Source of the DNA: a virus
Virus record (IMG/VR): IMGVR_UViG_3300020411_001523
Span: 1-36,413 of that record
Reading direction: 5' to 3' (one strand)
DNA: 36,413 nucleotides
Positions 4,584-33,966 of this stretch are shown piece after piece; positions within the stretch are counted from its first letter, which is position 1; the number at the start of each line of letters is the position of its first letter. A program made the position numbers and the translations under genes. Below the pieces are notes generated by a model that did not search any database, was not told the origin of the DNA, and saw only the letters and a program-made list of their open reading frames with translations.

Positions 4584-5131
4584 AAGTCGGTCTGGCAGTT
4601 GGACATTCCCGTTTGGGGGACCAAGGAGCTTACACAACGGGCGAGTATGTTCTCTCGGAGTGGGACTTTAATCGCGACATGGTCCGTCGAATTGCTCATG
4701 TTTTAAATGTAGACCACCGGATCTACGATCAATATCCGGCTAAGAGTTATGTCGGAGGAATAAACTATCTGTCCCGCAAGCTAATTGAAGACGACATCGA
4801 CGCCGTCATCGAGCTGCATTTTAACTCCGCCAGTCCGTCGGCTACCGGACACGAATGGCTCTACTGGCGAACCAGCATGGGTGGACAAAAACTTGCGTCC
4901 ATGCTCCGTGATGAAATGGAGAAATCCTACCCCGACATGAAATCTCGCGGTGCAAAACCACGCGGACCCAAACAACGCGGCAGTTATTTTTTACGGAAGG
5001 TGCGCCCTGTAGCCGTTATCGCAGAACCTTTTTTTGGCAGTAACGTAGACGAGTGGAGAATGATTAACAACAATCGCGGGAGGCTCGCGGGTGTCTACGC
5101 CCGTGCGATTAAAAAATTTGCAGAAGGATGA
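4580..5131 (+). CDS. Endolysin: N-acetylmuramoyl-L-alanine amidase (Amidase_3-like), 183 aa
   Basis: The protein fits a zinc amidase that cuts the bond between N-acetylmuramic acid and L-alanine of peptidoglycan. Residues matching the Amidase_3 zinc site are visible: His9 in VGHSRLGDQGA, Glu27 in VLSEWDFN, and His80 in IELHFNSA. Glu149 in IAEPFFGSN matches the catalytic glutamate near the C-terminus. The length (183 aa) equals one catalytic domain. There is no cell-wall-binding domain and no signal peptide, so export needs the holin. It follows the 55-aa holin candidate with a 4-nt overlap (ATGA) and overlaps the next gene by 4 nt, indicating one translation-coupled lysis unit. Confidence 0.85.
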   Translation: MKVGLAVGHSRLGDQGAYTTGEYVLSEWDFNRDMVRRIAHVLNVDHRIYDQYPAKSYVGGINYLSRKLIEDDIDAVIELHFNSASPSATGHEWLYWRTSMGGQKLASMLRDEMEKSYPDMKSRGAKPRGPKQRGSYFLRKVRPVAVIAEPFFGSNVDEWRMINNNRGRLAGVYARAIKKFAEG

Positions 5132-5448
5132 GCGTCCCCAAAAGCATAACAATGGGTGGCGTTCGGGTCCGAATCCGCTTCAGAGATCTAGGAGACGACG
5201 ACTGTTATGGGATGTATTCTCACCGCCGCAAACTAATTGAGATAGACAAAACCCTCAAAGGGAAAGACCTAATCGAGACGATTCGCCATGAGATGGTTCA
5301 CGCGGCGTTAGGCATTTCCGGTCTCGCTTATTGTGAGGCGTATGAAGAAGAAGCCATCGTTCGCTGCATCGACGAAATATTTTTCCCCGCATGGGAGCGG
5401 TTCACAAAAAGATTCCAAGCTAATGCCAAAAAAGAAATCCAGAGTTAA
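5128..5448 (+). CDS. SprT/M78-like zinc metallopeptidase-fold protein, 106 aa
   Basis: The zincin motif is clear: His54-Glu55-x-x-His58 (RHEMVHAALGIS), followed by an acidic patch (YEEEAIVRCIDE, about residues 72-83) that can provide the third ligand. The size and the arrangement of a beta-rich N-terminus and an HExxH helix resemble minimal phage SprT-like or IrrE/ImmA-like domains. These act on proteins, for example at DNA-protein crosslinks or on repressors, but substrates of phage versions are mostly unknown. No signal peptide is present, so it should be cytoplasmic or packaged. It overlaps the endolysin stop by 4 nt and is followed by the small basic-protein cluster. Confidence 0.7.
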   Translation: MSVPKSITMGGVRVRIRFRDLGDDDCYGMYSHRRKLIEIDKTLKGKDLIETIRHEMVHAALGISGLAYCEAYEEEAIVRCIDEIFFPAWERFTKRFQANAKKEIQS

Positions 5449-14706: not shown

Positions 14707-14718
14707 GTGTATTTGATT

Positions 14719-16506
14719 ATGGCGGTAAGCAATCCTTCCATCAAGCAGATACTCGAACCGAGAATCGACAGCAAAACAAAACGCATGGATGTAGGGGGGT
14801 TGTTCATTCCGCCGACCAGTCTTATCACCGCTTTGTTGTATGGCTTTGCAAACCACGAACACTTGCGGGCGAAAGAATATTATTTTTGGCGCATATGCGA
14901 CGAGCTGTGGAATCACGACGATCTTCCTGAAAAGTTAATGATCCGCCATCCGTGGGCAGAACAGATGATATGGGCGGCATTAAATAATAAGTATCTGGCC
15001 ATTGGCGGGTCCGCGTCTTCCGGTAAGTCACACACGATGGCTGCGTGGGGCATTATCAACTGGTTGTCCAAACCCAAGGACACACTTGTATTGATGACTT
15101 CGACCACACTGCGTGAGGCTCGCAAGAGGATCTGGGGATCGGTTATGTCTTTGTTGTCCGTGATTGACGGAGCGCCGATCAAGATCCGCGACTCGATTGG
15201 TAACGCCGCCTACATTGATGAGAAGGGGACGCTTATTGAGCGAGCGGGCATTTCACTCATTGCTGCGGAGAAGTCGAAAACACGCGAGGCCGTAGGTAAG
15301 TTTATCGGTATTAAGCAAAAACGGGTAATTTTGATCGGGGATGAGCTTTCTGAATTGTCAGAGGCTATTTTACAGGCGGGCTTATCTAACTTGTCTAAAA
15401 ACCCCGAGTTCCAACTAATTGGAATGTCGAACCCCAACAGTCGATTTGACGCTTTTGGCATATGGTCAGAGCCGATCAACGGGTGGGACTCAGTTGACAC
15501 CAACATGGAAGACGGATGGCCGACTAAATGGGGCGGCGATTATATCCGGCTAGACGGAGAACGCTCCCCCAACATTATTGCGGGAGAAGTCCTTTACCCA
15601 TGGTTGCCTACTCAGGAAAAAATTGACGAGGATAAGGGGCTGCTCGGCCCTGAGTCTCGTGGTTATATGCGGATGGTTCGCGCTATCTTTTTTGATTCGG
15701 ACGAGACGACGGGGATTTATGGAGAGAACGAACTCGCGATGTCAAAAGCGATGAACAAAGTTGAGTGGCAAGGTGCTCCCGTTAAGGTAGCTGGGATTGA
15801 CCCCGCGTTTACGAATGGCGGTGACCGGACCATATTATACACAGCCTCGGTGGGGTATGACACGACGGGCCAATACGTTATTGAGTTCGGTGAAGCGATT
15901 CACTTGAATGATGACGCTACTAATAAGGCAGTTCCTCGGACCTACCAAATTGTTCGACAAATTAAAGAACACTGCGAAAAGCGCCACATTCTACCTGAGA
16001 ATGTTGCTGTTGACGCCACTGGTGCGGGGGCACCCTTTTGCGATGTGTTGTCTGGAGAATGGGAAAGCGGGTTCTTGCGGGTTGGGTTTGGTGGAAAAGC
16101 TAGTGACAAGCGGGTAAGCGCAAACAGTCGGTCGGTAGGCACGGAGTTGTATGTGAACAGGGTCTCCGAGCTTTGGTTCGTCGGGAAAGAATTGATGCGG
16201 ACTCGTCAAGTATTTGGAGTCAGCACTGATCTGGCCCAAGAAATAACCAGTCGAAATTACGACATGGTGAAAAGCGGCACCCTGCGGGTAAAAATCGAGT
16301 CGAAGCCTGAGTTTAAGTCTCGTTTCGGGCGCAGCCCCGACCTTGCTGACGCAGCTTTTCTGGCGTTGGACTGCGCTCGACAGAGACTTGGCCTCGTTGC
16401 GGTTGACCCGCCTGAAGAAAGAAAGGATGGGCGTCCTCACCGCCGGACCACAATCAAGCAGTTGGGACAGGCATTACAGAACCGAGATGCGGTTTTGCTG
16501 GATTGA
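14719..16506 (+). CDS. terL: Terminase large subunit (TerL), 595 aa
   Basis: I start it at ATG 14719 (MAVSNPSIKQ). A GTG at 14707 is possible. The packaging ATPase shows Walker A GGSASSGKS at 97-104 and Walker B ILIGDELSE (Asp208, Glu209). The C-terminal RNase H-like nuclease has Asp361 in GIDPAFTNGGD, Asp432 in VDATGAG, and Asp541/Asp544 in SPDLADAAF. Motif order and length are normal. TerL pumps DNA into the prohead and cuts concatemers. It is divergent from TerS. No portal or capsid gene follows, which is unusual. Three repeat-rich genes and the giant gene do. Confidence 0.9.
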   Translation: MAVSNPSIKQILEPRIDSKTKRMDVGGLFIPPTSLITALLYGFANHEHLRAKEYYFWRICDELWNHDDLPEKLMIRHPWAEQMIWAALNNKYLAIGGSASSGKSHTMAAWGIINWLSKPKDTLVLMTSTTLREARKRIWGSVMSLLSVIDGAPIKIRDSIGNAAYIDEKGTLIERAGISLIAAEKSKTREAVGKFIGIKQKRVILIGDELSELSEAILQAGLSNLSKNPEFQLIGMSNPNSRFDAFGIWSEPINGWDSVDTNMEDGWPTKWGGDYIRLDGERSPNIIAGEVLYPWLPTQEKIDEDKGLLGPESRGYMRMVRAIFFDSDETTGIYGENELAMSKAMNKVEWQGAPVKVAGIDPAFTNGGDRTILYTASVGYDTTGQYVIEFGEAIHLNDDATNKAVPRTYQIVRQIKEHCEKRHILPENVAVDATGAGAPFCDVLSGEWESGFLRVGFGGKASDKRVSANSRSVGTELYVNRVSELWFVGKELMRTRQVFGVSTDLAQEITSRNYDMVKSGTLRVKIESKPEFKSRFGRSPDLADAAFLALDCARQRLGLVAVDPPEERKDGRPHRRTTIKQLGQALQNRDAVLLD

Positions 16507-17060: not shown

Positions 17061-18563
17061 ATGGCGGCAAAGAAAAAAGGGCCACCAAAAGTGCGGACGA
17101 CTTACGCGGACAACCCTCAAAACAGAAGATTTAAAAAAGATGGGAAGGTATACAACCGAGTAGGGAAACCGCACGGCTCTAACCCGTCTACGTGGCCGAA
17201 AGCCAAGACGGCACCTGCGAAGACATCCGCCGCGAAGACATCCGCCGCGAAGACATCCGCCGCGAAGACATCCGCCGCGAAGACATCCGCCGCGAAGACA
17301 TCCGCCGCGAAGACATCCGCCGCGAAGACATCCGCCGCGAAGACATCCGCCGCGAAGACATCCGCCGCGAAGACATCCGCCGCGAAGACATCCGCCGCGA
17401 AGACACCGGCTCGGACGCCGCAAGATGTGGGGGCGGCAAAAGCGCGGGCTGCTCGTAATCCGTGGTCTTCTGCGGCCAAATCGAGTCCGGCCCCTGAAAC
17501 TCCTAAACCTTCTAAAACTCCTAAGACGCCGGGTCGGTTCGTGCGATACGCGAAGAGAACTCCGCTTAGTATCTTAGGGTTTAACACCGCTAAAGAACTT
17601 CTTAGTCCTCAAGCTAGAGAAAGCACCCGCAAAAAATATTTTGAAGTCGGTGGAGAAAAAGAACCTTTAGCGGGAAAAGGATTCTTGGAGCAGTTTGGGA
17701 AGGGAATGTTGTCTATGGGGGTAAAGCCTGTGTCTGCTGTAATGCAGGGACTCGCAGAACTAGGAAGAGAACCAGAAGAAATAAATATCCGAACCCCCGA
17801 GCAAATAAGGGCGGATATGGACCCCGAGGATTTGGCGCGACGGGAGGCAATGATCGCTGCTTTTAAAGCGCGTAACGCTGCCAAAGCTGCCAAAGCTGCC
17901 AAAGCTCCTAAAGCTCCTGAAGCTCCTGAAGTCTCTGAAGCTCCCGAAGTTCCTCAAGAACCGTTGACTGGAAGAACCTTAGCGAAAGCCATGCGGGTTT
18001 CTTTTGAGCAGCTACAGAATAATCCTGAAGCTCTCCGCGCAAGTATGTCTGGTTTGAGGCAAGCTGCGATCGATGCGGGAATTGCAGATGCAGACAAGTT
18101 CAACCGCGTAGGCCGCAAGATGTATGCGGACTTTAAAAAACAACAAGAAGTCGCTGACACCATGGACCCACGGTCCCCTGAAGCGAGTGCCTATGTAAAG
18201 ACGCCGGGGCTTGATGCCCTTGCTGAAATGCAAAAGCGCGAGTTCGGGACTAGCACGGCGCTCCGTGGCTCTGTAGGTGGATTAAAAGATCCTTCTCGCA
18301 GACTTGGAACGAGGGCCGGAGATGCTAGACGACGAGCACGAGAACTAGAAAGAAGAGGCTACCGAAGAGAAGCAGGGCAGTTACGCGCAGCCGCAGCAGC
18401 GAGTGGGGAGCCACGTTTACAGTCGCAAGCCTATCGTGAGGCTGTTCGCGCTGAAGAGGAAGAAGCCCGCAGGAGAGCGGCGGCAAGAAGAGCAGCGGCT
18501 GTTAGGCGAGAAGAAGATGCAGCTATAGGCCGCGCTTTTACAGATCAAATGGAGCAGACTTAA
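17061..18563 (+). CDS. Lys/Ala-rich protein with 12 KTSAA repeats, 500 aa
   Basis: The start at ATG 17061 begins MAAKKKGPPK. A basic N-terminal 50 residues are followed by twelve KTSAA units (about 54-113). After a Pro/Ala/Lys-rich linker the protein has two mixed segments with no known motif. Residues around 272-300 hold a second low-complexity tract (AAKAAKAAKAPKAPEAPE). The C-terminal 100 residues are Arg/Glu/Ala-rich and probably coiled coil (ARELERRGYRREAGQ, then EEEARRRAAARR). The composition suggests a DNA- or partner-binding virion protein. I infer that it may be ejected or internal, given the giant gene downstream. It lies 6 bp after the preceding stop. Confidence 0.65.
   Translation: MAAKKKGPPKVRTTYADNPQNRRFKKDGKVYNRVGKPHGSNPSTWPKAKTAPAKTSAAKTSAAKTSAAKTSAAKTSAAKTSAAKTSAAKTSAAKTSAAKTSAAKTSAAKTSAAKTPARTPQDVGAAKARAARNPWSSAAKSSPAPETPKPSKTPKTPGRFVRYAKRTPLSILGFNTAKELLSPQARESTRKKYFEVGGEKEPLAGKGFLEQFGKGMLSMGVKPVSAVMQGLAELGREPEEINIRTPEQIRADMDPEDLARREAMIAAFKARNAAKAAKAAKAPKAPEAPEVSEAPEVPQEPLTGRTLAKAMRVSFEQLQNNPEALRASMSGLRQAAIDAGIADADKFNRVGRKMYADFKKQQEVADTMDPRSPEASAYVKTPGLDALAEMQKREFGTSTALRGSVGGLKDPSRRLGTRAGDARRRARELERRGYRREAGQLRAAAAASGEPRLQSQAYREAVRAEEEEARRRAAARRAAAVRREEDAAIGRAFTDQMEQT
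17221..17400 (+). repeat. Perfect 12 x 15-bp tandem repeat (KTSAA minisatellite)
   Basis: The unit AGACATCCGCCGCGA is repeated twelve times without a single mismatch, followed by a degenerate unit (AGACACCGG...). A unit of 15, a multiple of 3, keeps the main frame open and codes KTSAA. All six frames stay open (DIRRE and RHPPR on the plus strand, RGGCL, FAADV and SSRRM on the minus). Perfect identity implies recent expansion or conversion. It has no spacers, so it is not a CRISPR array. Confidence 0.95.
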
Positions 18564-19578: not shown

Positions 19579-22500
19579 ATGTCAGAGCAAACTGATACCC
19601 AACCCACTGTCAATCCATTAGGATTCTCCGAATGGTCATCTGAAACTAATTTTGATGACCCACTTGAAAGTAGAGTAAAATACGGAGATTATCTGCGAGA
19701 GCAGTATATTAATGCCGACGCATACACCCCTACTGTAGAGAAAGAAATCTCTATTGCGTTCGCACAGTCTTTGCAACAGGAAGGGTTGCTGACAGAAGAA
19801 AATGCGAGTGATGTCGAGCGAAGGATTTCAGCGATTCAAGGTGCTGTTTCTTTTGACCAAGAAGCTCGCAATATGCACCGCTCATTGTCGTCTACTGAAG
19901 ACGCACAGACCTTGTCGGACTACTTGTCAGCCGCAGATGTGACCGACCCGTCGGCTGAATACGTGGAAGAATTACAGCCTCTCAAGGACAAGGCGACGGA
20001 GATTGTAAACAACGAAAAGGATGCGCGGGCGCGAGCAATGATAGACGCGGGCGAAATCCCCATGGCTAAATTGTCTTCTGGGGAGCTTTTAGTGGGAGAA
20101 GCCACAGAGAGGATGGGGCTTGTTGCGGCGATCAAATCTTCTAAAGCGGGCGGGGTCACTATGGCCGACGCTATGGCGGCTAAAGCGCAATTGAGCACTC
20201 CTGATGGGTGGGAGATTCCGTTGTATAAAATTAAAAAGTTAACGGAGATTTATCGTCTACTTGAAGTAGAGCAAAAAGAAGACGAAGACTTTTCTCTTAT
20301 TGTAGACGGGCTTTCAACAGAGCTTGCCGAGTCTGAATATGACGCTGGCGACCGCAGAGAAAAATGGTTCGATGAGATGGGGCGTAAAGGAGTAAATCTT
20401 ATACGTAGAGTGCTAGGCCAAGGCGAAGATGTTGACAAAGAAAACGCTCGTCGCAGGGCGATAGAAGAAGCTAGAGGAACTAACATCAGGCAACTCGCTG
20501 CAAAGTATGCGCTAAAGTTTGATCAACGACCCGAAGAGGTAGAGATGGCGCTTAAACAGTTGTCTCTTGATAATGCGAACAGCAAACAAATGTTTGAGTT
20601 CCATGATGAAGATGACGAGATTGGTAAAAACATCAGGTTTTTAGGGTATGGCCTCCCTTCTGTTTCACCACAAGCGTTGGTAAACAAAGACGTTTTTGAC
20701 AAGGCTATAGCCGCCCATCCCGACATGAGCCAAAATGTTAAGGATGCTCTGGAGCGGCAACGGGTCAATTACCTTCAAGAGCGGTTTGTAGATTACAATA
20801 AACTACTTTCTCGAACCAGTGTTGCTGACGAATGGAACAAAGCCTTAATCACAGGCAGGGCAACGGGCGTTGAAGACTACCGGATTCTTGAAGCCTTTGT
20901 TGCTGATGAGGATAACTACAATGAATTTAAAGAGCGACTGTCTGGACTCGGAGCATCTATATGGCATGGATTTGGGCAAGTAATTCATGCAATCCCTGCT
21001 TCTTTAGGAGCGCAAGTGTCGAAAGATTACTTGGCTTCGGTGGCGCAAAAAAACTCTGACCGCCGACAACTGGCAGAAGTGTTTGGTGAAGAGTTTGGAT
21101 TTTTGCAGGACGTTGGAGAAACTGCTTTCCCTATGCTCATGGATGTAGGGATTACTGGCTTGCTCGCACTGAAAACAATCCCTGCGGGGGGCGCAGGAGC
21201 TGTGGCGTATGCTTCTATGAAAGCGGGGGGTCGCGCTTCGGCGTCCTTGGCAGGTAAAGGAGTTACGAAAGCATTATTTTCTAGTGTCTTCAGAAGAAAA
21301 GCGGGGAAGAGCATCACTGAACAGGCCGATGAACTTCTTGGCGAAGGGTTGATTAAAGGGACTAGGTCCGGCGCGGTTGATATTCTTAAAACCTATAACG
21401 GGAAACTAGCGTCTAAACTGGGCATCGCCCCCGCTGTTTTTATTCCAGCAGCTACTAGGTCAGGGTCGGCAACTTATGGCGCGGTGTATAACCAGTTGCG
21501 GCAAAACCCAGACATAACTGAAGAAGAAGCGCACGACAGGGCGCTTGGCTCCATGCTTTTAGCCGGAACCTTTACGGGTATTCTTACCTCTGCTTTTTCT
21601 GTTATTGGGAAAGGAGGACTTGAGGACGCCTTGTTGAAGGGGCTGACCTACAAGCAGATGAATACTGTTGCTAAAAGTGTTACTAACATGGTCGAAGGAG
21701 ACCTATTGGAGGTGGCTGAAAAAGCCATATCCGAGACCATGAAAAAATATGCTTTCGGTGGGGCAAAAGGGCTGATGAGAAACTTCAGGGACGAAGGTAT
21801 TGAAGAAGGCATTGATGAGTTTGTTAATGGGCTGGTAACCGACGCAGCCTTGAATGAAAACACGCCATTTTTAGAGCGGCTGCAACAGTCATGGCACGCT
21901 GTTGTTTTGGGCGGCACAATGGGGGCGGGGGTTCCTGTAGCTCAATTTGCTCTCCGACCGTTAAAACCTGCTGCGGCAAGTGGCGCTCAAATGGGTGGAA
22001 TGTTTGATGAGGTTTTAGAAAGTATGGCGCGTGATCTTACTGACAAAGGAGCACCCATAACCGCAGAAGTGCTTTCTGCGATAGCGTCTGACACACGCAG
22101 AAAAGACGCGAGGTTGTCAGTAGTTCCTACGCCGGAAGAACAACAAGACATCCTTGAAGAACAAAGTAAACAGAGACTTCTTCGGGGAGCCAAAGAAAGA
22201 GACGAAGGAGATGTTCCTCTTGCATCAGGCATTACGTCTGGGGAAAAATTTAGACAAGAACTTGAAGCGTCAGTTAATCCTGACTCGGTAGCTGAAGCCG
22301 TAGCTGAAACATTGGCGAGTAGTGTTCCAGTTGTTTCTGGGGCGGACCCCAATACAGTTGAAACTAAGGGGAGCCTGATGCGGTCGTTGGGGATGCAGGT
22401 TCGAGAAGCAAGTTCAGTTGAAAACACAGACCACCAGTCTGTTCGTGATCTTCTCATCCCACCTGTCGCTGGCACAGAACCTGATTATTTTGAAGGTGCT

Positions 22501-25500
22501 CGTCCGCTTGCGCGTCAACTGATATTAGACCCTGCTCGTCAGAGTGAGGTTGATGCTATTGAGGCTTATTACACTGAGAGGATTGAAAAAGTTAATGAGG
22601 CCGAGGCTTTTTACAACAAAATGGACCGTGAAGCGCAGTCCTTTGAAATGGCGGCTGGTGCAGAATCTCCCGTCAGGAAAGGACTCCGGCGAGCAGTTCG
22701 AGAAGGAAAAGCAATAAGCTCCAAAGATGCCGCTGAACTAAGAGGACTGGTGTTTAAAGATAGGATTCTTGCACTTAGAAAACTTAAAATCGAGCAGTCG
22801 GTAGAGCAAGAAACGCAAGACCTACAAGAACTGTCAGAACCTGTTGAATCATCGGTTAATTTTCTTATTAATAGTGGGTTCCAGCATATCGTTACAATCC
22901 CCAAGCTGAAAAGGCTGGGCATCCCCGTTAATCAGCGGACTACATCCGAGCCGTTTCTACGCGCCGTAAACCGACGCATTGCCCGAGAAGTAGAAGAAAA
23001 ATTTCCAAAATTAAAAATTACCAAACCAGCAAACGGTGCCGCAATTAAGTCTGTTTACGGACAAGGCCAAGTGTTTGTTGACCAGAATCAAGTGGGCCAG
23101 TTTGACAATGATCCGGTGGCCATGCTGACTTTGCTGGAACTCGGGACGCCTATCGTAGTTTCTGAAGAAGCCCTCGCATCCCCTACCCTGAACCCTGCTT
23201 TCCGGTTTACCCAAGTCGGAGAGACTACTGTGGTTTCTAACATCATGGTCCCAGAGTCACGGGGCCTTGTCTCTGCACTTACTCCTGCTGAACGTGCGCT
23301 TAACATCCGCCCAGATTATACGTCACTTAGTGAGTTGGTTAATACGGTTACATCTCTCCGTAGGCAGGGTATTCAGAACCCCAACGATTTAATTTCTTCT
23401 CCGTTTAACCCCGACGAAAAAATTACCGTCGAGGAAGCTATGTCGAGGTTGGAGCAGAGCGCAGACGTTACTGAATTTTTACAGCCAACACGGCGGGGCC
23501 TGACAGAGCCTTTTGTGGCTACTGCGGCTATCGAACTAAGACTCAGGGCGCAGGAAGCCTTGTTCAGAGGCGACACCGTATCTCTTGAAGGACTTGGTAA
23601 CCAAGTTGCTAACCGTTACCAGCAAGAACAAGAAGCTCGACTGAAGCACCAGAAAGAAGTCTTCATGTCCACGGTCTCTCCTGAGAACGCGGCAGAACTT
23701 CAGGCCGATCCCGACTTTAACCCAGAATCTGAAATTTCAGATACCTATACGGCTTACCCCGAAGAAGACCCTGTTCTGTTTTCTCCGTCGGAGCTTTCAG
23801 GTTTGTTCAAAGATGCCCAATCAAATGCGGTTGCGGCGATCACTGGCGACCAAGAACTTAGAACTCGGGTTGTTAATCTGGTTCAAAACGAAGTCTTTGG
23901 TTCGACTACTATTGATTTCGACCGCGTATCTAACAAAACCTTGTGGGGCTATCTGGTTCAGTGGATGGCGCAGGGTAATAGTCGATCAAATCCCGCCAGC
24001 ATTGAGTTCCAAAAAGAACTAAAAGGCAACAGGTTCGACATGGGGCGTCCTGTCAGGGACACCCTCCGCATGATGACCCTGTCGTCAAACTCCATCGAAG
24101 GGACGATTCAAGATAACGCCGAATACAGGGCGTTCTTAAAAGATCAGATTCGATCCCTCAGAGGAGTAGAGGCTACTGACGGTCAGGTAACCGAGTTCTT
24201 TAACTTTATACGCCAGTCTATCGGTGAGCTTCAGCTTCGATCACAGCCCACTGCAATGTCTCTTGCTGAAGTCCAGCGAGTTAATCTTGAGGCGATAGCC
24301 GCGCTGGGGCTGAAGAGTGGTGAATCGTCTTCTATTATCGAAGCTCTTCGCCGCATCGCCGGAGTGTCGGCTCGCACACAGAAAAAATACGACAAGAATC
24401 TGGTGGCGCTGGCTCGACTTCTCCTGAAGTCGCCGGACTTTATCAATACGATAGAGCTTACTATTGACGAGACGAATCAGAATTACGCGGGTAATTTTGA
24501 CATCCTCAATGATGGCACCCCCGCTATCTCAATTAACATTAGCGGACATAACCCACGGGGAGTTGCTGACACGTTGCTGCATGAACTCACTCACGCTTTT
24601 GTAACCAATGTCACCCGCAAATCTCCGGCCCAACAGACCCGCCAAGAAGCTAACGCGATTGGTGTTCTGGAGCAAACTGTCCGAGGTATACGCGAACGGC
24701 TCAACGTGCGCGGGCCTCAGTTAGCCAAGATTGGTTACACGAACAACGACCCTCGTGTTCTCGACGGGCTGGAAAATGTAGACGAGTTCGTGGCGCATTT
24801 TCTTACTTCGACTGACTTCCAAGCGGTCGTAAAAGTAATTTCTGACCAACAGAATAATTTCTTCCAGCGGGCGATTAACGCAATCGTTGCGTTCTTCAAT
24901 CCTACTCGGACTGAGATCCCACAGTTTACGGAAATATTTTCTTCCGTTTTGGATTTGTCTCAAGCGGCTATAGTTGCGGCTGGTCCGAGAAAGAAGAAAG
25001 CGTCTATTTCGATGGACGAATTTGTAGCCTTGCAAGATGAAGGCAAAGTAAACTCTGAATCTCTTTCTACAACCGCAGCAGACTATATTGCGGACAAGGT
25101 ATTCCCTGCTACTCCTGCGACTGATAGCACGGTTCGTAAAGAACCTGTCACGGCTAATGCGTTAGCGAATAAAGTAGCCCACGACATTATCGAATCGCAG
25201 CAAGAACAAGTTCGTCTTGCCTCGAATGTTCAAGCAGCGACAGGAGTTGATCCGGCAGCGCAACAGGAAATAGTAGCGCGGATTGAAGAAACTATCTCTT
25301 ATGTTGAAGGACTTGTTAGCCCTGAAACACAGATAGAAGTAAACAACGAGTTACCTGTAATGGCCGAGGTGGACCCCAAGACTGGAGTCCTGACAATAAA
25401 CCCATTGAAGTTAGCGGGCCTTGGACTGGATCTCCAGCAACGCAATGGGGGCCGTCCTGTCCCAGCCCACACTCGACGGCATATATTGGCGGTAGTGATT

Positions 25501-28500
25501 AATGAAGAAGTTGCCCATGCCGCTTCTGTTTCCGCGCTTACTACTACAGAGATCCAAGAAATCATGGACTCCATGACTCTTGCAGATGCGTATCGGGCAA
25601 TCGATGCCTACGGAGATACCTCGGAGAACGCAGCGAAAACACGCGAGAGCATGAAAATGGGCTGGCGAACTGGCGACCCCGCAGTGAGACAACAAGTTGT
25701 CGAAGAAATGCTCCGGCAACACGCTCAACGGGTCACCCGAGGTTTCACTACCGAAGAAGACGTAGCCTTCCTTAGAACCAATCCGAACTTGTTGCAGTAT
25801 ATCATTCGTTACTTCAAAAGTTTCTTGAAGAAGTTGGGCTACTACAGGTCTCGTGGGGATATCAGCCCCCAGTTGCGCGTGGCTGTTGACCGAATGGTCA
25901 ATGAAATCAGGGCCATGGAATCAGGGTTCAGGGTTCATTCTAACTTTGCCCCCTTCGACGCAAACAATCCTGCGTCTGCCGTGGAAAAATTCAGGAAGCA
26001 GATCCGCATGAACAAGCCCATCGAGCGGCCCGAAGCAGGCGAGCCTGCGCTGGCTTCAGGGATAGGCTCTGGCCAAGAAGCGGCTGCATTTCTTAGGGAG
26101 CAAGGAATTACAGGGGTAGAAAACCTCGCTGATTTTGGTTACGGTTACTTTCTAAGTGACGGCACGGAGGGATTAGCTCCAGTTAAAACAGAAGAAGAAG
26201 CAATCGCTGAAGCAGATCAGACAGGAAAAAGTGAAGTATTTCGGATAAGCAGGAATATCATAGGCGAGGGGGAAGTGGTGCAGAAAGGTCTGCGTAGATA
26301 TGTCAAAGTAGGGGATGAGATGTTTTCTCTATTCCTTAATGTAGACAACGGGACTCCGCACTTTGGTGCTGTTAGGAAAGTCAAACTCAGGACAACTGGC
26401 GAAATGGTTTGGGCAACAGGCAGCGAGTTTGAGTTGACGGGAACAGGAACACCCTTCCGAGTTATGCGAGAACTCTCAGCTCCTTTCTTTCAAATGCTCC
26501 AAATAGCAGACGCAGAGAAACCGGGCATGAGGTTCCGGTTAGACGCAGAGCCGCGCCGCGCAAAACTATTCAAACGGTTCCTTGAGAGAGCGGGGATAGG
26601 GTTAGACCAATCGAATCAGTTTACCCTTAGCGGAGACTATCACTCCGGTGAACTCGGTCAGGGCAATCTTGCCGCGCTGGGGCTGGCTTCAGGGATCACG
26701 GCTCCCATTACGCTCCCCCTCTTCTCCGTCCAAGAGGGGGACGCAGAGTTCGCTGCGATAATGGAAAAAGAGGGTCCGAGCAGATCGAGCAGTTTTGAAC
26801 CCCGCCGCGACGAGTCGGGGCAATTCCGAAAAATGCCATTAGGGCGTGTTATCGACCTGATCCCTTCAGATACTAAGTCTGGTCATCTTCAAGCCCTTCT
26901 CATTTTACGGGACAGCTTGAACCCGAGCGCCCGTAAATCTTTTGAGGAGACCGAAGTGCGTTGGGGGACGAAAGACGGCGAGATGAGAATACTTGATTCT
27001 ATGGGCAATAGCCATTATGGCAAAACTACCCTCGGCGGAACTCGATATATTCACCTAGCTGCCGACAGCCGCGATAGCCATCCCTACGTTAGTGACGAGG
27101 CGTGGGCTTGGAACGCCCCAGCGCGTGTTTGGGGCGGGGTCTTACTACACGAAGCCGCACACGCCGCCACAGTGGTAGCCCTAGACAAGCACGCCGGACC
27201 AAGGGGATGGGGGCGCGGGGGGCTGGAGTCATGGTCAAAAGACCGTGGAGATTTTACAGATCCGAATGCAGTTGCTAATGCACCAGCCGCAATTCGGGAT
27301 TTATTTAGGTTATACCACCGCGTAAAGCCACAGGTAGACGCCACAGTAGGCACGGCGGGCGACTACGACCGCTCACTCGGCTACGCCGTATCAAACATAC
27401 ATGAGTTTATTGCCGACGCATGGTCAAACTCCGAGTTTCAAACCTACCTTAGAGGGATAAGTGTCTCCCCCGATAAGTCAGCGTTCCAAGAGTTTATTGA
27501 TATAATTAAACGCCTCATTCTTGGAGATGAGGCGAGTGAAAGTGCCAACACGGCGCTGGAAGAAGTGTTAGATTTATCTATCCAGATAGCTAATCTTGGG
27601 AAACCCGATCCGAACTGGAAGGTAGTGACCGGACGAATCGCTTCAGGGATCACGGCGGACGCTGTATCTCTTTCCCCTATAGACGCACCACTAGATCTGT
27701 CTGGCATTGGAGTCACCGCCGGATCAAGAGTCAACACAGCACAAGGTAGCGAGGCAGAAGACAGCACGTTTGAAGCCTACGAGCAGCAGGATAGCTATGT
27801 AATCAACAGCGTTTCTGTCGCCAAGTATGTAGCGTTCCAAGGCCGCAAGAATCTCAGGGGCCGACCTACTCAGGTTCGGGGCAAGGACACTCTTATCTAT
27901 AAACAACTAAAGGCTCTGGATGATCGCAGGGTAGAGATGTTCCCCAACACGGAACTAAAGGCGACTGTTATCCGAGAAATTAATTCTGCGAGTAGAGTCA
28001 GTGACGCACTTGTTAAGCGGATAGCCCAAATGCTATATGTCGGAGAAGTCGAGTTTACTGGGACTGAAGCCCAGATGACTAACGTGCGAGGGCTGATCGA
28101 TTTCGTTCGGGGCAGAGACAAAACAACAGTAAATGCTGCAAAAGAATGGAAGGCGCAAACAGTCAGAGGTGTTCTTGATGAGATGCGTCCTCTGGCGGAT
28201 GAGGTATACGACACCGTAAACGCTTTTGCCGTCGATAACTTGGTTCATCTTTACGATTCCATGCACCCAGTTCTCAGAGAGCGGGCCAAGCTATGGTATG
28301 AAGGAGCGAACCGGATCGCGCAGGACTTGGCGGAGAGGTATAACCTTACCCTTGAGCAAGCCTCAACTGCACTCGCAGTTCTAAGCCCGCAGAAAGATTG
28401 GTTCCAGAACGTGTCCCTCGCGGGCCGTGTCATGGAAGTCGTTACTAAGAACAAAAGGAAGAAATACACTCAGACCATGGCAGATAGGGCGCTGCAAATG

Positions 28501-31500
28501 GCCGAGAACGCTACTAAAAGTTCAGATGAAACGATGGCGGAGTTCCAAAAGCGGAAGAAAAGAGGAATTCACGAGACGAAGAAGTTCAATGAGATGATGG
28601 TCGGCAAGACCTTGGGGCAGCTAATCAAGCAAGCCAAGGAAGGGACCGAGTCCGAAACGCTTCCTGCCAGATACGTTCGCGTATTTGACCAAATAAACCA
28701 TCCTCGGGGATACGCCATCATATCCCCAGAAGGAAACAGGCTCGGTTTGCAGACAACAAAGAACAATACCGTTGCCGCCGTAGGGTGGGGGTCTTACAAA
28801 GAGATCCAGAAAGCGGTCAATGCTTTGCTGACTACTGACGAAGCCATCCATAGTGATCTTCTTGGGGAACAGCACAAGGTAAGGAACTTCAGGAACAACA
28901 TTGCCGACCCTGCTAATGCGGATGACGGGACCATTGATACCCACGCGGTAAGCGCACTTTACTTTATCCCTGTTGCTGGTGCGGACACTGAGGTAGCTCA
29001 CAATTTTGCGTCCTCTAAGGGGGAAGACAAGATCAGCAGCGATGGTTCAATCCAGTTTGGAATTAACGGGACGTATGCCCTGAACTTAAAAGCGCACCAA
29101 GATGCGGCTGCGTTTATCAACGAACGGGACGGGACTAATTTGTCTACCCGAGAGATCCAATCGATAACGTGGGAACAAATACGGACATTGTTCCAGCCGG
29201 AACAAAAACGCGAAAAAGCCAGCTACGCCAAGAAAGGGGACAAGGAAACAGTTCTTGATGAATCTCGACAGATATGGGATAAAACAACTGACGATGGCGA
29301 AGCGAGACAACTTATCGAGGAAAGATTTGGAGGCTATGGCTTCCCAGACTGGGCCACACCAAGGGAGCTGCGCTCTGTTGCTGAAGATGTGGCCTACTCA
29401 GAAAGAGTTCGACTCAAGCGACTTCCTTCAGGTGCAGTATCCAGACTACCCGATACCGACGCCAGTGGAGATTCTGACGGAGTTGGTTCCGTCGGAGTTA
29501 CTGGATTAAAGTCCGGTGTTTGGAGTCCGGCAGTTAACGCGCGGGATATTTCTTCTGACGAAGCCGTAGAGCTTTTGTCAGAAATCAGGTTGGATGGCAC
29601 CAAAGAATCTTCTCGGGAAAGATTCTTAGCCGCTGTAACATCAGCGAATAAGAGTCTCGATAACTTTGAGTTAGAGGGGGCGTCTATTTTCTTAGCAGAA
29701 GACAACTCTGCTGGAGTTGCGGTCAGTCCTGTTACTGAATTGGGAGGGGGAGATCTTTTTGTTTTTGATTCCCGCGAGGATCATAAAAATGTAATTGGTA
29801 TATTAGAGTTGCTACAGGCAGCAACATCGCAGAGGGCGCTCTTGGATTCATCGGGAGACACCATTCAAGTAGCTACGGTAAAGGTCAAAGACATTGATAA
29901 TCTGCCCAATATAATGCATCAGACATTTGGATTTGCTCCATATAGTCGTGTATTGAGCGAAGACGGATCAGAAACCGTGTTTATGGGGAGAGATTCGTTT
30001 GACGGCTTTTATAACCCTGTATTACACCCCTACGAACATTACAGGGGGACTCAGCCCGTATTTGAGTCTGAAGAACTCGCTAAGGCCCACCGCACGCGGA
30101 GAATGGCGAGCATGGGTATTTCCCTTGAAAGGGAACCCATGACTACACGGGAAAAGATATTCAGACAAACAGAACAAGACGAACCCAGCGTAACCCTTGG
30201 GGACATCATCAAAGGACTTCCGGCGACTCTTGTTTCCCCGATTGCGGGCGAAGCGCCAACAAATTTGTTTGGCACAAGGATTAAAGAGAACGCAAGACTG
30301 CGTATTAATGCTAAAGCTCTTGCTAGGATTCGCGAAGAAAAAGCCAGAATAGCTAAAGAAGAGCCGCGTTTCCGCAAAGAGGGCGCGTTCGACAAGGAAG
30401 AGTTGCCAGAAAGATTGCGGGAGACTGACCTTCCGACCTTCCTCGGCGTCAGGGGAATTTCTGAATTGAGTCTTCGTTCAGGCGTCCAAGTCGAGAGCGC
30501 AAAGATTCTTACTCTGGACGAACTTAGGGGACTTGATGACTCCGTAAACGAAGCGGTTCAGACTATTGAAACTACTCAAGGCCGTCCTCTCGATGAAGGA
30601 CAACGAGCCTCTATTATGTCCGGCATCTTCGGGGCCGTGTCTGATCTTCCGTCTGAGTTCAATGATGCTGGTGTAGACTATAGTGAGTTCATCGAATTGT
30701 TGGAGCTGCCCCTTATCGAAAAAGGTGTTGGCTTTGATAAGATTGGTGGGACGTTTAAGAAGCTATTCTTCGGGGAGACTGACCCCACAGTCCAGCGGTT
30801 CGCTCGGCAGAGGGATGCGTTCCTTAGAACAGGAGACAAGATGGTCGAGGAGTATCATCTGAAGTATAAGGAGGCGATTGAGAAAGATTACGACCCCGAT
30901 AATATCCCATGGGAAACAATCCAGACGGCTACTGGAACAACCGATAATATCGACCCTGACCCTGACGGAACGATAGCAGATGCTAGGGACAAGGCTAAGA
31001 TTGATATCCAAAGAAAGTATGCCACCGAGTTATCAGATAAGATAAACAAGATAGAAGATGCGTATGACAACGCACGGGCCAACATCAAGGCTACAGAACC
31101 CGATGCAGGCAAGCGCAGGCAGCTTTACACTGAGGAGAGGAAAAAGAAAGATGCCGCGATCACGCGAGAGACTGAGCTAAACAAGGCAGCTAGAGGAGCT
31201 GAAGAAGAACTGGCCGACACGACTTACAAGGCCGACCTAAAGAAAGCGTTCGCGGCTAGGAAAGATAAAATGATGCGCGACCGTGACGCAGCCTTGAAAC
31301 AGATACAAGTAGAGTCCCCAGACTTGTTCAATGTCCTTCTTGATCTTCGGCGGCTCACTGATGAGCTATCAGTGCAAGCACGAGATTTGTTCGGGCGGCA
31401 CGACAAGGGAGTGCTTGTTAAGTTCGATAACAATCTTGGACTTTACGTCACCCGTAGATACCGGATGTTCTCTGAGACCGATTACGTTGATCGCATTCTT

Positions 31501-33966
31501 AGATCCGATGAAGAAGCGGACGTTGCCATCAGAGCCGCCGCGATTGATTTCATGCACGGCCAGTTTATCGAGAATGAAACTCGACGGCAGATAGCTGCCA
31601 ACCCCTCAATATCTGAGTCGGATGCACGGGCAGAAGCAGAGCGAGTATACAACTCCAGAGAACTCGGGGGGCAGTCACTGGGATATCAGATGATAACTGA
31701 GTTCCTTCTGTCGTATGATACAGAAACGGGACCAGAGGATTTTGCTTCCGCCTTTGCACTGGCTGGAATGCCCAAGACCAAAGAGCCTCGGTCCACAGGC
31801 GCACTCCGCGCAATCGTTAAGAACCTGCAAGGCAGGGCGGAAATACCCAAACCGCTCGCTGATCTTATGGGTGCAAACAATATCCCAGAAGAAAGCGTAG
31901 ACAACCTGCTGTATGCCTTCGCTACAGTTGCCAAGATTGCATCACACCAGCACTTCCTTGAGTCGATGAGGCAACAAGGGATAGCAAACGGGTGGCTCTT
32001 TACGAAAGAACAGTATAACGATCTTCTAAAGGAACCCGATGGGTATGCGAAACACGCCCATCGTTTTAGACAGATACAAAATTCTGGGGCGGATAGTGGG
32101 CTTAATCCTCTGGCTGGTTTGTATGTTGAGAACGATATCTACGAGAGCATCCTGCCAATGTTCCAGCAGACAACGAGAGCAGGGAACGACGCAGCGTCTA
32201 CCGTGATGAGCACTTCCTTGGCGGCAGCGCAGAGACTTACCGGAGCAGCAATGGCTGCAAAGACTTTGTTCTCATTAGGATTCTACCTCCGAAACGCACT
32301 CGGCAACGTGCTCTTCTTCGGCCCCGCGCAGGGATATTTCCATTCGGCTAAGGATATTATTTCTGGTGACCCGATGTCTGGCACAGGGATGAATATGTTC
32401 TCTGCGATCGGGCGAGCAGTTCAAGGCAATAAGGCCGAGACCAGCGCATACCTCAGATCACTTGAGGGGCTTGATGTCTTCGGCAACGAAGTCCGTTCGG
32501 AGATTATGATCCGGCTGCTTCGGGGAGAAGAAACGACTGATGGAGTGCAAGCCCAGCTTTCAGATCTGGCGTCTAAGGCGTCAAATAAAAAGACCCCTGC
32601 ACACATCAGAAGAGCCGCAGCGGATACGATGGCGCGTCTGGCAGGGGCCATGGATACCTTCTACAAGATCGGTTACTTTGAACACGAACTAGCCGTGCTG
32701 CGAAAAGCATACAAAGCAGATCTGGCTGAAGGTAAAATCTCGGAAATAGATCTAAAGCGTGAAGCAGCAGAGATCGTAGGAGACACCGCGCAGTCATATT
32801 CCCGCGCCCTTCCGATCATTAAGAAGTTCACTGGCTCAGGCGCTGGTTTGCTCATCGCACCTTTCGTCCGGTTCACGGCTGAAGTCCCACGGATTGCAGT
32901 CAATACAATCAAACGGGGGGTCAAAGAGATGCGGTCGGACAACCCCGTCATCAAAGCGCGGGGGTTCCGGCGGCTGGCTGGGTTTAGTATCGTCGTTGGG
33001 GGCCTCAGTATGGCGGTGCCCACGCTCTTGAGAGTCGTGCTCTCTGGGATGGGCGAGGAAGAAGACGAAGCGTTCCGTATGTCCCTGCCTCCATACCTTC
33101 GGAATCATACTTTCTTCATCCAGAAGTTGGACAACGGAGACATCAAGTCATGGGATCTTACTTACTTAAATCCTTTTTCAGTTATCGCAGACCCGATGTT
33201 GCGGACCCTAGAACACTCCGTGCGGGGGGAGCCGCTCACTGCCGTCACTAAGCTACTCACATCCAGCTTTGTTGATCCATATCTCGGCGACCAGATCTTT
33301 GCCGGAGCGGTCTTTGATATTAAAGAGAACCGGAATGCACGTGACGATAATCCTATCTGGGAAGAAACAGACACGCCCGCACTGAAGCTAGGTAAGATGA
33401 TCGGGTATCTAACGAAAGAAGCCTACGGGCCGAGGACTCCCCTGAAATTAAAGGATGCTTACCTAGCACTCGGACAGGATCAGCAGAGTTTCGATAACTC
33501 ACCGTTTGGTATTATCTTTAACGAAGCGATGCCCGTGGTGCCTAAGACCACTCCTCCCGTCGATATGTTCAGGCGGGTCGTGTTTAAGATGCGCGACGAG
33601 CAGACAAGGGTGCAGCGTAGGTTTGGAGAACTGAGGAAAACCGCAGGGATGTCTGAGGGACAAGTAGCGAGAGTCCACCGAGACATCAGGAAGAGCAGGA
33701 TGCGTATCAACAGCCAACTGTCCCGCGCCATGAAAGGATTCAGGGGGATGGGCGTCTCTAACAATGAGATGTATCAGACAATGAAGGGGGCCAGATACGG
33801 GAAGCGGAGATCCCAGCTTCTGTTCACAGGTTTCATGGAGAACCCCGTCCCACCTAAGAATCTGGTAGATGCGCTAATGTCTACTGAAGTGGGAAGGGAG
33901 AGACTGAGAGCACTCATGGAAGAACACGCTAATCATGCAAGGTTCCTCCGGCTGGACGATGATTAA
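19579..33966 (+). CDS. Giant multidomain polyvalent protein, presumed ejected virion protein, 4795 aa
   Basis: One frame of 14.4 kb starts at ATG 19579 and makes up about 40% of the window. Helical N-terminal region, then hydrophobic segments near 515-545, 657-680 and 771-790. Zincin 1: H1668-E-x-x-H1672 (LLHELTHAF), with NVDEF Glu1736. Variant zincin: E1976-E1977-V-A-H1980 in INEEVAHAA, lacking the first His. Zincin 2: H2524-E-A-A-H2528 with HEFIAD Glu2609. Residues about 2895-3130 resemble a helix-hairpin-helix glycosylase-type domain with D3120 in TIDTHA. A GNAT-like segment may lie near 3330-3520 (low confidence). Coiled coil at 3795-3911. C-terminal region from about 4235 with a membrane-like helix at 4468-4490 resembles the LPD38-type end of polyvalent proteins. 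Such proteins enter the host with the DNA and carry antihost or protective enzymes. The stop overlaps the convergent gene. Confidence 0.8.
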   Translation: MSEQTDTQPTVNPLGFSEWSSETNFDDPLESRVKYGDYLREQYINADAYTPTVEKEISIAFAQSLQQEGLLTEENASDVERRISAIQGAVSFDQEARNMHRSLSSTEDAQTLSDYLSAADVTDPSAEYVEELQPLKDKATEIVNNEKDARARAMIDAGEIPMAKLSSGELLVGEATERMGLVAAIKSSKAGGVTMADAMAAKAQLSTPDGWEIPLYKIKKLTEIYRLLEVEQKEDEDFSLIVDGLSTELAESEYDAGDRREKWFDEMGRKGVNLIRRVLGQGEDVDKENARRRAIEEARGTNIRQLAAKYALKFDQRPEEVEMALKQLSLDNANSKQMFEFHDEDDEIGKNIRFLGYGLPSVSPQALVNKDVFDKAIAAHPDMSQNVKDALERQRVNYLQERFVDYNKLLSRTSVADEWNKALITGRATGVEDYRILEAFVADEDNYNEFKERLSGLGASIWHGFGQVIHAIPASLGAQVSKDYLASVAQKNSDRRQLAEVFGEEFGFLQDVGETAFPMLMDVGITGLLALKTIPAGGAGAVAYASMKAGGRASASLAGKGVTKALFSSVFRRKAGKSITEQADELLGEGLIKGTRSGAVDILKTYNGKLASKLGIAPAVFIPAATRSGSATYGAVYNQLRQNPDITEEEAHDRALGSMLLAGTFTGILTSAFSVIGKGGLEDALLKGLTYKQMNTVAKSVTNMVEGDLLEVAEKAISETMKKYAFGGAKGLMRNFRDEGIEEGIDEFVNGLVTDAALNENTPFLERLQQSWHAVVLGGTMGAGVPVAQFALRPLKPAAASGAQMGGMFDEVLESMARDLTDKGAPITAEVLSAIASDTRRKDARLSVVPTPEEQQDILEEQSKQRLLRGAKERDEGDVPLASGITSGEKFRQELEASVNPDSVAEAVAETLASSVPVVSGADPNTVETKGSLMRSLGMQVREASSVENTDHQSVRDLLIPPVAGTEPDYFEGARPLARQLILDPARQSEVDAIEAYYTERIEKVNEAEAFYNKMDREAQSFEMAAGAESPVRKGLRRAVREGKAISSKDAAELRGLVFKDRILALRKLKIEQSVEQETQDLQELSEPVESSVNFLINSGFQHIVTIPKLKRLGIPVNQRTTSEPFLRAVNRRIAREVEEKFPKLKITKPANGAAIKSVYGQGQVFVDQNQVGQFDNDPVAMLTLLELGTPIVVSEEALASPTLNPAFRFTQVGETTVVSNIMVPESRGLVSALTPAERALNIRPDYTSLSELVNTVTSLRRQGIQNPNDLISSPFNPDEKITVEEAMSRLEQSADVTEFLQPTRRGLTEPFVATAAIELRLRAQEALFRGDTVSLEGLGNQVANRYQQEQEARLKHQKEVFMSTVSPENAAELQADPDFNPESEISDTYTAYPEEDPVLFSPSELSGLFKDAQSNAVAAITGDQELRTRVVNLVQNEVFGSTTIDFDRVSNKTLWGYLVQWMAQGNSRSNPASIEFQKELKGNRFDMGRPVRDTLRMMTLSSNSIEGTIQDNAEYRAFLKDQIRSLRGVEATDGQVTEFFNFIRQSIGELQLRSQPTAMSLAEVQRVNLEAIAALGLKSGESSSIIEALRRIAGVSARTQKKYDKNLVALARLLLKSPDFINTIELTIDETNQNYAGNFDILNDGTPAISINISGHNPRGVADTLLHELTHAFVTNVTRKSPAQQTRQEANAIGVLEQTVRGIRERLNVRGPQLAKIGYTNNDPRVLDGLENVDEFVAHFLTSTDFQAVVKVISDQQNNFFQRAINAIVAFFNPTRTEIPQFTEIFSSVLDLSQAAIVAAGPRKKKASISMDEFVALQDEGKVNSESLSTTAADYIADKVFPATPATDSTVRKEPVTANALANKVAHDIIESQQEQVRLASNVQAATGVDPAAQQEIVARIEETISYVEGLVSPETQIEVNNELPVMAEVDPKTGVLTINPLKLAGLGLDLQQRNGGRPVPAHTRRHILAVVINEEVAHAASVSALTTTEIQEIMDSMTLADAYRAIDAYGDTSENAAKTRESMKMGWRTGDPAVRQQVVEEMLRQHAQRVTRGFTTEEDVAFLRTNPNLLQYIIRYFKSFLKKLGYYRSRGDISPQLRVAVDRMVNEIRAMESGFRVHSNFAPFDANNPASAVEKFRKQIRMNKPIERPEAGEPALASGIGSGQEAAAFLREQGITGVENLADFGYGYFLSDGTEGLAPVKTEEEAIAEADQTGKSEVFRISRNIIGEGEVVQKGLRRYVKVGDEMFSLFLNVDNGTPHFGAVRKVKLRTTGEMVWATGSEFELTGTGTPFRVMRELSAPFFQMLQIADAEKPGMRFRLDAEPRRAKLFKRFLERAGIGLDQSNQFTLSGDYHSGELGQGNLAALGLASGITAPITLPLFSVQEGDAEFAAIMEKEGPSRSSSFEPRRDESGQFRKMPLGRVIDLIPSDTKSGHLQALLILRDSLNPSARKSFEETEVRWGTKDGEMRILDSMGNSHYGKTTLGGTRYIHLAADSRDSHPYVSDEAWAWNAPARVWGGVLLHEAAHAATVVALDKHAGPRGWGRGGLESWSKDRGDFTDPNAVANAPAAIRDLFRLYHRVKPQVDATVGTAGDYDRSLGYAVSNIHEFIADAWSNSEFQTYLRGISVSPDKSAFQEFIDIIKRLILGDEASESANTALEEVLDLSIQIANLGKPDPNWKVVTGRIASGITADAVSLSPIDAPLDLSGIGVTAGSRVNTAQGSEAEDSTFEAYEQQDSYVINSVSVAKYVAFQGRKNLRGRPTQVRGKDTLIYKQLKALDDRRVEMFPNTELKATVIREINSASRVSDALVKRIAQMLYVGEVEFTGTEAQMTNVRGLIDFVRGRDKTTVNAAKEWKAQTVRGVLDEMRPLADEVYDTVNAFAVDNLVHLYDSMHPVLRERAKLWYEGANRIAQDLAERYNLTLEQASTALAVLSPQKDWFQNVSLAGRVMEVVTKNKRKKYTQTMADRALQMAENATKSSDETMAEFQKRKKRGIHETKKFNEMMVGKTLGQLIKQAKEGTESETLPARYVRVFDQINHPRGYAIISPEGNRLGLQTTKNNTVAAVGWGSYKEIQKAVNALLTTDEAIHSDLLGEQHKVRNFRNNIADPANADDGTIDTHAVSALYFIPVAGADTEVAHNFASSKGEDKISSDGSIQFGINGTYALNLKAHQDAAAFINERDGTNLSTREIQSITWEQIRTLFQPEQKREKASYAKKGDKETVLDESRQIWDKTTDDGEARQLIEERFGGYGFPDWATPRELRSVAEDVAYSERVRLKRLPSGAVSRLPDTDASGDSDGVGSVGVTGLKSGVWSPAVNARDISSDEAVELLSEIRLDGTKESSRERFLAAVTSANKSLDNFELEGASIFLAEDNSAGVAVSPVTELGGGDLFVFDSREDHKNVIGILELLQAATSQRALLDSSGDTIQVATVKVKDIDNLPNIMHQTFGFAPYSRVLSEDGSETVFMGRDSFDGFYNPVLHPYEHYRGTQPVFESEELAKAHRTRRMASMGISLEREPMTTREKIFRQTEQDEPSVTLGDIIKGLPATLVSPIAGEAPTNLFGTRIKENARLRINAKALARIREEKARIAKEEPRFRKEGAFDKEELPERLRETDLPTFLGVRGISELSLRSGVQVESAKILTLDELRGLDDSVNEAVQTIETTQGRPLDEGQRASIMSGIFGAVSDLPSEFNDAGVDYSEFIELLELPLIEKGVGFDKIGGTFKKLFFGETDPTVQRFARQRDAFLRTGDKMVEEYHLKYKEAIEKDYDPDNIPWETIQTATGTTDNIDPDPDGTIADARDKAKIDIQRKYATELSDKINKIEDAYDNARANIKATEPDAGKRRQLYTEERKKKDAAITRETELNKAARGAEEELADTTYKADLKKAFAARKDKMMRDRDAALKQIQVESPDLFNVLLDLRRLTDELSVQARDLFGRHDKGVLVKFDNNLGLYVTRRYRMFSETDYVDRILRSDEEADVAIRAAAIDFMHGQFIENETRRQIAANPSISESDARAEAERVYNSRELGGQSLGYQMITEFLLSYDTETGPEDFASAFALAGMPKTKEPRSTGALRAIVKNLQGRAEIPKPLADLMGANNIPEESVDNLLYAFATVAKIASHQHFLESMRQQGIANGWLFTKEQYNDLLKEPDGYAKHAHRFRQIQNSGADSGLNPLAGLYVENDIYESILPMFQQTTRAGNDAASTVMSTSLAAAQRLTGAAMAAKTLFSLGFYLRNALGNVLFFGPAQGYFHSAKDIISGDPMSGTGMNMFSAIGRAVQGNKAETSAYLRSLEGLDVFGNEVRSEIMIRLLRGEETTDGVQAQLSDLASKASNKKTPAHIRRAAADTMARLAGAMDTFYKIGYFEHELAVLRKAYKADLAEGKISEIDLKREAAEIVGDTAQSYSRALPIIKKFTGSGAGLLIAPFVRFTAEVPRIAVNTIKRGVKEMRSDNPVIKARGFRRLAGFSIVVGGLSMAVPTLLRVVLSGMGEEEDEAFRMSLPPYLRNHTFFIQKLDNGDIKSWDLTYLNPFSVIADPMLRTLEHSVRGEPLTAVTKLLTSSFVDPYLGDQIFAGAVFDIKENRNARDDNPIWEETDTPALKLGKMIGYLTKEAYGPRTPLKLKDAYLALGQDQQSFDNSPFGIIFNEAMPVVPKTTPPVDMFRRVVFKMRDEQTRVQRRFGELRKTAGMSEGQVARVHRDIRKSRMRINSQLSRAMKGFRGMGVSNNEMYQTMKGARYGKRRSQLLFTGFMENPVPPKNLVDALMSTEVGRERLRALMEEHANHARFLRLDDD
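22216..27654 (+). repeat. Four ASGI(T/G) linker motifs inside the giant protein
   Basis: The motif is at residues 881-886 (LASGIT), 2158-2163 (LASGIG), 2369-2374 (LASGIT) and 2687-2692 (IASGIT). The last two share the DNA run GCTTCAGGGATCACGGC exactly. The spans between copies hold distinct modules, including zincin 2 between the third and fourth. The motif sits at apparent boundaries, so it looks like a shared linker, cleavage or recombination seam. Confidence 0.6.

Follow-up and report, generated by a model that had tools for sequence, protein, structure and literature searches.

A giant phage protein with conserved cores, a hypervariable cargo slot and a recurring border peptide: a candidate self-processed polyvalent polyprotein

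We report that the 4,795-residue protein encoded in the window (the whole stretch of DNA analysed here, a linear IMG/VR virus record of 36,413 bp) is built of a conserved N-terminal core, a hypervariable cargo slot and a conserved C-terminal core, and that a short recurring peptide, L-x-[ST]-[GRSQ]-hydrophobic-[GT], marks the borders of its modules. Sequence comparisons make it probable, with considerable reservation on our part, that this is an ejected polyvalent polyprotein which processes itself at these borders, and that the borders also serve as recombination joints; packaging, ejection, cleavage and the identity of the cutting peptidase are steps that we infer. The gene and the terminase gene that precedes it are located as follows:

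14707..16506, plus strand: terminase large subunit, TerL (PHROG 2, E 2e-16)
19579..33966, plus strand: giant polyvalent open reading frame (ORF), 4,795 aa, with homologues in all 27 relatives examined

The giant ORF starts with ATG and contains no internal stop, in agreement with the single uninterrupted frame described in the first-pass annotation. Intact giant ORFs of 3,046 to 5,394 aa are present in all 27 related records (26 of which were chosen via TerL), which rules out an assembly join or frameshift at 19579-33966. The same data do not support the earlier suggestion that a gene of this length is rare and oddly placed, as it is a standard gene of the lineage, starting approximately 1.5 to 4.5 kb past TerL wherever the IMG/VR locus is long enough; that no portal gene lies between the two is true, but this is the ordinary gene order in the lineage. 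The interval in the window includes a 500-aa ORF (17061-18563) with about a dozen tandem KTSAA repeats and no family match.

One relative, G001 (61,116 bp, its 549-bp terminal repeats 99.6% identical), is collinear with the window and extends approximately 24 kb further upstream. The window is therefore a fragment, with about 24 kb missing, of a phage lineage with genomes of roughly 61 kb. The additional upstream part of G001 carries ORFs that, by size alone, could encode portal, scaffold and capsid proteins, and profile searches confirmed none of these; a 752-aa ORF considered as the portal gene gave no family or PDB match and stays a size-based guess. Relatives of TerL are encoded on 134 IMG/VR stretches (80 kept) and on none of 50,697 GenBank phage records. 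Among the GenBank phages the N-terminal half of the giant protein is likewise unmatched and the C-terminal half gives weak matches; hence the lineage is known from metagenomes only, and the window represents an uncultured marine phage. Elsewhere in the window, a 106-aa ORF (5128-5448) adjoining the amidase endolysin gene gave an SprT-like match that does not reach the curated cut-off (E 0.0013) and possibly encodes a small separate metalloprotease-like protein.

Alignment of the giant protein with its 27 homologues using blastp gave the following layout:

19579..26049, plus strand: conserved N-core, aa 1 to ~2158, shared with ~14-26 of the 27 relatives along its length
20956..21978, plus strand: Gly/Ala-rich hydrophobic part of the N-core, aa ~460-800 (alignment and hydropathy)
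26068..26682, plus strand: cargo module M1, aa 2164-2368, no family match, not in G001
26701..27636, plus strand: cargo module M2, aa 2375-2686, with an intact zincin HEAAH motif, not in G001
27655..30471, plus strand: cargo module M3, aa 2693-3631, holding a DUF7178 domain and a further region
30490..33963, plus strand: conserved C-core, aa 3638-4795, the central part present in 26-27 of the 27 relatives

The Gly/Ala-rich part of the N-core, with hydropathy peaks at aa 659-677 and 774-792 and an invariant EGxEEGIDEF-type motif, is a candidate membrane or channel region. The slot (aa 2159-3631) is common to between none and nine of the 27 relatives, and its size ranges from about zero (G009, G015, G022 and G027) to approximately 2,000 aa (G003 and G005). 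In the relatives it gives matches to ART-PolyVal, GNAT, methyltransferase, 2H-phosphodiesterase-like and DUF7178 domains, some of them below the curated cut-offs. The IMG/VR scan yielded no relatives of module M2, a PADLOC scan of the whole giant protein gave no match at E 0.1, and nothing credible was found in the PDB by sequence search with N-core residues 300-900 and 1085-1560 and with C-core profiles.

The only Pfam match in the giant protein is to DUF7178 (E 1e-18, aa 2884-2994), within a domain for which we predict an 8-oxoG-glycosylase-like fold:

28180..29367, plus strand: DUF7178 domain, aa 2868-3263

Foldseek alone gave E 3.8 for the model of this domain (pLDDT 89.6), while the best VIA-align matches are 8-oxoG glycosylases, i.e. 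3knt (Z 9.2 over 184 residues), AGOG (Z 7.9 and 7.4), OGG1 (Z 6.5) and MUTYH (Z 6.0); a queuosine-salvage enzyme (DUF2419) scored Z 7.2 and unrelated structures about 5 or less. In 39 DUF7178 sequences K3100 and D3120 are invariant (pattern HKVRNF...IDTHA), with a spacing that we take, on the basis of the OGG1 pattern, to resemble that of the catalytic Lys and Asp of OGG-type enzymes. The proposal of a DNA-glycosylase-like segment is thus supported at the level of the predicted fold, HhH-GPD / 8-oxoG-glycosylase-like. DUF7178 was found in giant ORFs as well as in stand-alone ORFs of approximately 520-590 aa.

Two further domains, both in the N-core, are of the zincin type:

24307..24957, plus strand: core zincin MPT1, aa 1577-1793, with HELTH at nt 24580-24594 and DEFVAHF at nt 24781-24801
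25360..26001, plus strand: second zincin-like core domain MPT2, aa 1928-2141, with a degenerate NEEVAH

As the first reading of the sequence had noted, there are two intact zinc-peptidase motifs and a third variant motif. We place the intact ones at aa 1668 (HELTH) and, in module M2, at aa 2524 (HEAAH, nt 27148-27162, with HEFIADAW downstream), and the variant, NEEVAH, at aa 1975 in MPT2. MPT1 has the strand and helix order of a zincin, HExxH followed by a downstream Glu, and its DEF-type third-ligand motif lies about 67 residues on (aa 1735). It is intact in most N-cores, where HExxH and the third ligand are conserved. MPT2 is degenerate (NEEVAH) in most members and reads HELAH or HELSH in G016, G018, L199 and L205.

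An MPT1 profile connects the protein to phage ejection proteins, as it matches two PDB entries by sequence: 9sfn, an "Internal virion protein", at E 1.2e-11 with HExxH and the Glu in register, and 8vb2, the tetrameric ejection protein gp48 of PhiM1, at E 1.4e-8 with HExxH and third ligand aligned. In fold comparison using VIA-align, MPT1 matches residues 2124-2365 of N4 gp50 (9pnt; Z 8.4, rmsd 3.6 over 185 residues), a Z near 8 being modest by itself and the sequence matches being independent of it. This segment of gp50 is the C1 domain with HExxH (N4 structure paper), and PhiM1 gp48 resides inside the capsid as a member of the ejected complex (PhiM1 structure paper, which does not mention a peptidase). 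We observed a zincin-like domain in gp48 with LLHEAAHA at residue ~382, and the same domain in 9sfn. Foldseek alone returned no match at E 0.001 for the models of the MPT1 region and of DUF7178, and our statements on folds rest on the second look with VIA-align and on the sequence matches. In the N-core and C-core alignments, some sequences also match "virion structural protein" PHROGs; these matches and those to ejection-protein zincins make a location in the virion likely. A purely structural or scaffolding role for the giant protein, with no ejection and with vestigial cargo domains, is in our view very improbable; the degenerate MPT2 of most members would suit such a role, but the conserved HExxH and third ligand of MPT1, the conserved catalytic-like Lys/Asp of DUF7178, the fast, effector-like turnover of cargo and the status of the MPT1 homologues as proven ejection proteins all argue against it.

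Very long multidomain chains that combine zincin-like metallopeptidases with mixed enzyme domains are also a feature of the phage-type polyvalent proteins described by Iyer et al. 2017 (PMC5512222). The giant protein likewise contains disparate domains (MPT1, the HEAAH zincin and the glycosylase-like DUF7178 fold), among them the zincin-like MPTase domain that is common, but not universal, in such proteins. Its authors predicted that such proteins are delivered together with DNA and processed by zincins within the chain, and likened them to polyproteins; the difference is that the paper names no cleavage motif and no arrangement of fixed cores around a variable slot. Nor did we find a cleavage motif or slot architecture in a literature search that covered few subscription papers and no bioRxiv preprints. 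The border sites and the slot layout therefore appear to be new, processing in general having been predicted already. The early description of the protein as a packaged, polyvalent toolbox fits well with the zincin homology to ejection proteins and the variety of domains, but missed the layout, the border peptide and the swaps.

Of the solved systems, the N4 virion RNA polymerase gp50 (Schitoviridae) is likewise giant and ejected, and has the same zincin-like HExxH domain; it differs in being an RNA polymerase, whereas searches with the whole giant protein gave no match to virion-RNAP PHROGs (E 0.1) or to RNAP families in Pfam (E 1). PhiM1 gp48 (8vb2) and 9sfn share significant sequence similarity over the zincin and have chains of ~1,260-1,340 aa, compared to 4,795 aa with a cargo slot in the window. 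The C-core is also found in Pseudoalteromonas phage vB_Pun_Y3 (profile E 8e-59, annotated "ADP-ribosyltransferase") and Pelagibacter phage HTVC027P (profile E 9e-39, annotated "putative structural protein"), the difference being that it is there a separate gene product of 1,027 or 1,342 aa; in the stretches of these two phages that were examined we detected neither an N-core profile match nor the border motif. The C-core gene of vB_Pun_Y3 (L155, 10498-13623) follows a 3,421-aa ORF and opens with a YHGS ART-like segment, so that cargo plus C-core exists as a separate gene.

The border peptide, or a sequence like it, occurs at six positions in the giant protein:

22219..22236, plus strand: border motif LASGIT, aa 881
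25216..25233, plus strand: border-like motif LASNVQ, aa 1880, between MPT1 and MPT2
26050..26067, plus strand: border motif LASGIG, aa 2158, at the end of the N-core
26683..26700, plus strand: border motif LASGIT, aa 2369
27637..27654, plus strand: border motif IASGIT, aa 2687
30472..30489, plus strand: border motif LRSGVQ, aa 3632, at the start of the C-core

In the first set of proteins the pattern was present 25 times in the 11 nearest members (0.37 expected from shuffled sequence); the remaining 17 lacked the LASGIT pattern (0 matches vs 0.34 expected) and have variants of their own at the same borders, e.g. LQSR[FYWVL]G[AS], LESRFGA and LETRFGA. For replication, the regular expression was fixed on the first set and then applied to 17 non-redundant new proteins from 59 loci fetched by a C-core profile, giving 13 matches in the slots compared to 0.36 expected (binomial, positional p 6e-7). 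Further variants at borders are LQTSFGD (three copies in L169), LESRFGAD (three in L203) and LQSAIG/A (three in L199 and L205), such that equivalent borders carry LASGIT, LQSRYGA, LESRFGA, LQTSFGD or LQSAIG depending on the clade. An unsupervised test for repeats at the C-border has too little power in many proteins when the repeat is an 8-mer; it gave low p values in only part of them, the pairs being recovered from about eight different ones (G007, G023, G011, G025, L169 and L186, and more weakly G021 and L204). An embedded peptidase and a recurring short border site, as expected of a polyprotein, are both present at the sequence level.

The residue that follows [GR] in the border motif is large and hydrophobic. 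Zincins usually favour a large hydrophobic P1', which suits this residue. Among proteins with slots >400 aa (slot table built with an HMM anchor), at least two borders were found in 16 of 18 with an intact core zincin and in none of four without (Fisher p 0.002, shared ancestry being ignored in this test). The p value shifts with the slot cut-off, to 0.014 at >350 aa, which admits a counter-example, G010, with two motifs although neither of its core zincins is intact; moreover, L208, in which MPT1 is intact and the slot measures 782 aa, has zero motifs, and L172 and L182 have dead zincins and one motif each.

The two motifs of G010 would be accounted for if the borders were cut by another protease, of the phage prohead type or from the host, and not by the embedded zincin. 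Phage maturation proteases are known to act on short motifs, usually in several head proteins. In the window, G001 and G003 the motif is confined to the giant protein, the only matches elsewhere being short antisense or chance ORFs, and we therefore rejected it as a general maturation site. Together with the association of the motif, in most cases, with an intact zincin and the absence of a recognised protease gene from the parts scanned, this makes cleavage by a separate protease quite improbable.

Turning to the DNA, nucleotide identity between the window and G001 is ~92-93% on both flanks of a swap, between whose borders the window encodes 529 aa and G001 64 unrelated aa. The alignment ends at 26063 and restarts at 27641, placing both breakpoints within motif DNA, inside GCTTCAGGGATCACGG. 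Two pairs of 98% identity, G026/G027 and G005/G006, also differ by one motif-bounded module, and the cargo-less G027 retains a single border; in the wider family some breakpoints lie away from motifs. Slot copies in clade A share GCTTCAGGGATCACGG beyond what codon usage predicts (identical codons overall, 138/338 vs 91 expected), an excess that we attribute to natural swaps. In several clades, same-gene copies of the motif keep the peptide with different synonymous codons, e.g. TCT AGG, TCC CGC and TCC CGA in G023, which argues that the peptide itself is selected. The border appears to work at both the peptide and the DNA level.

These data bear on whether the border peptide is a recombination joint and flexible linker only, the giant protein staying intact in the virion. 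The breakpoints and the codon sharing in clade A are as expected of a DNA-level joint. In an AlphaFold model of aa 1556-2175 (pLDDT 82 overall), two stretches that separate confident domains have pLDDT <50, namely aa ~1860-1890 (residues 305-335 of the model) and aa ~2155-2175, and these linkers, predicted to be disordered, coincide with LASNVQ (1880) and LASGIG (2158). Moreover, the N4 homologue, the virion RNA polymerase, is packaged unprocessed according to Iyer et al. 2017 (PMC5512222). Against this, a DNA joint needs no conservation of the peptide where Ser and Arg codons differ; the residue pattern is constant across clades with different DNA; the border-like copies at aa 881 and 1880 lie between conserved core domains, where swapping is unseen; and in most cases the motif occurs together with an intact zincin. 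An uncut protein with joints and linkers is in our estimate unlikely, but it is an alternative of some weight.

Self-processing of an ejected polyprotein, the reading that we prefer, would proceed as follows. The giant protein would be packaged in the capsid and ejected alongside the DNA, with the N-core (the hydrophobic region and MPT1) and the C-core forming the fixed ejection machinery, and the number of exchangeable effector modules in the slot would vary from zero to several; in the window these would be a module of no known family, a second zincin, and an enzyme of predicted glycosylase fold plus a further region. The core zincin would cut the border peptide in the [GR]|hydrophobic region, the released modules may function as individual proteins, either in the virion or in the host, and the DNA encoding the border would be the joint for module swapping. 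A broader proposal, which we put forward tentatively and with somewhat more doubt than belief, is a cassette system in which a self-cleaving polyprotein uses a lineage-specific peptide both as zincin site and as joint for exchanging effectors, site and peptidase co-diverging, and in which other lineages may use [FY]S[LR][RK].

Whether, where and by what polyvalent proteins are cut has been open since their first description, and the border peptide provides exact, testable candidate sites. It also divides giant "hypothetical" phage proteins into modules, so that each injected effector can be identified and expressed on its own, and the slot offers a route to change the injected effectors without altering the injection machinery, while the zincin connects the giant protein to solved ejectosomes.

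Finally, giant ORFs that carry DUF7178 and are unrelated to the lineage (L216, L223, L251, L256 and L290) have a repeat peptide of their own, [FY]S[LR][RK]. The pattern [FY]S[LRKT][RK] has 35 copies in 37 ORFs, some of them near-duplicates, compared to 10.2 expected from shuffling, for instance three copies of FSRRG in L216 and two of KYSLRKAPDT in L256.
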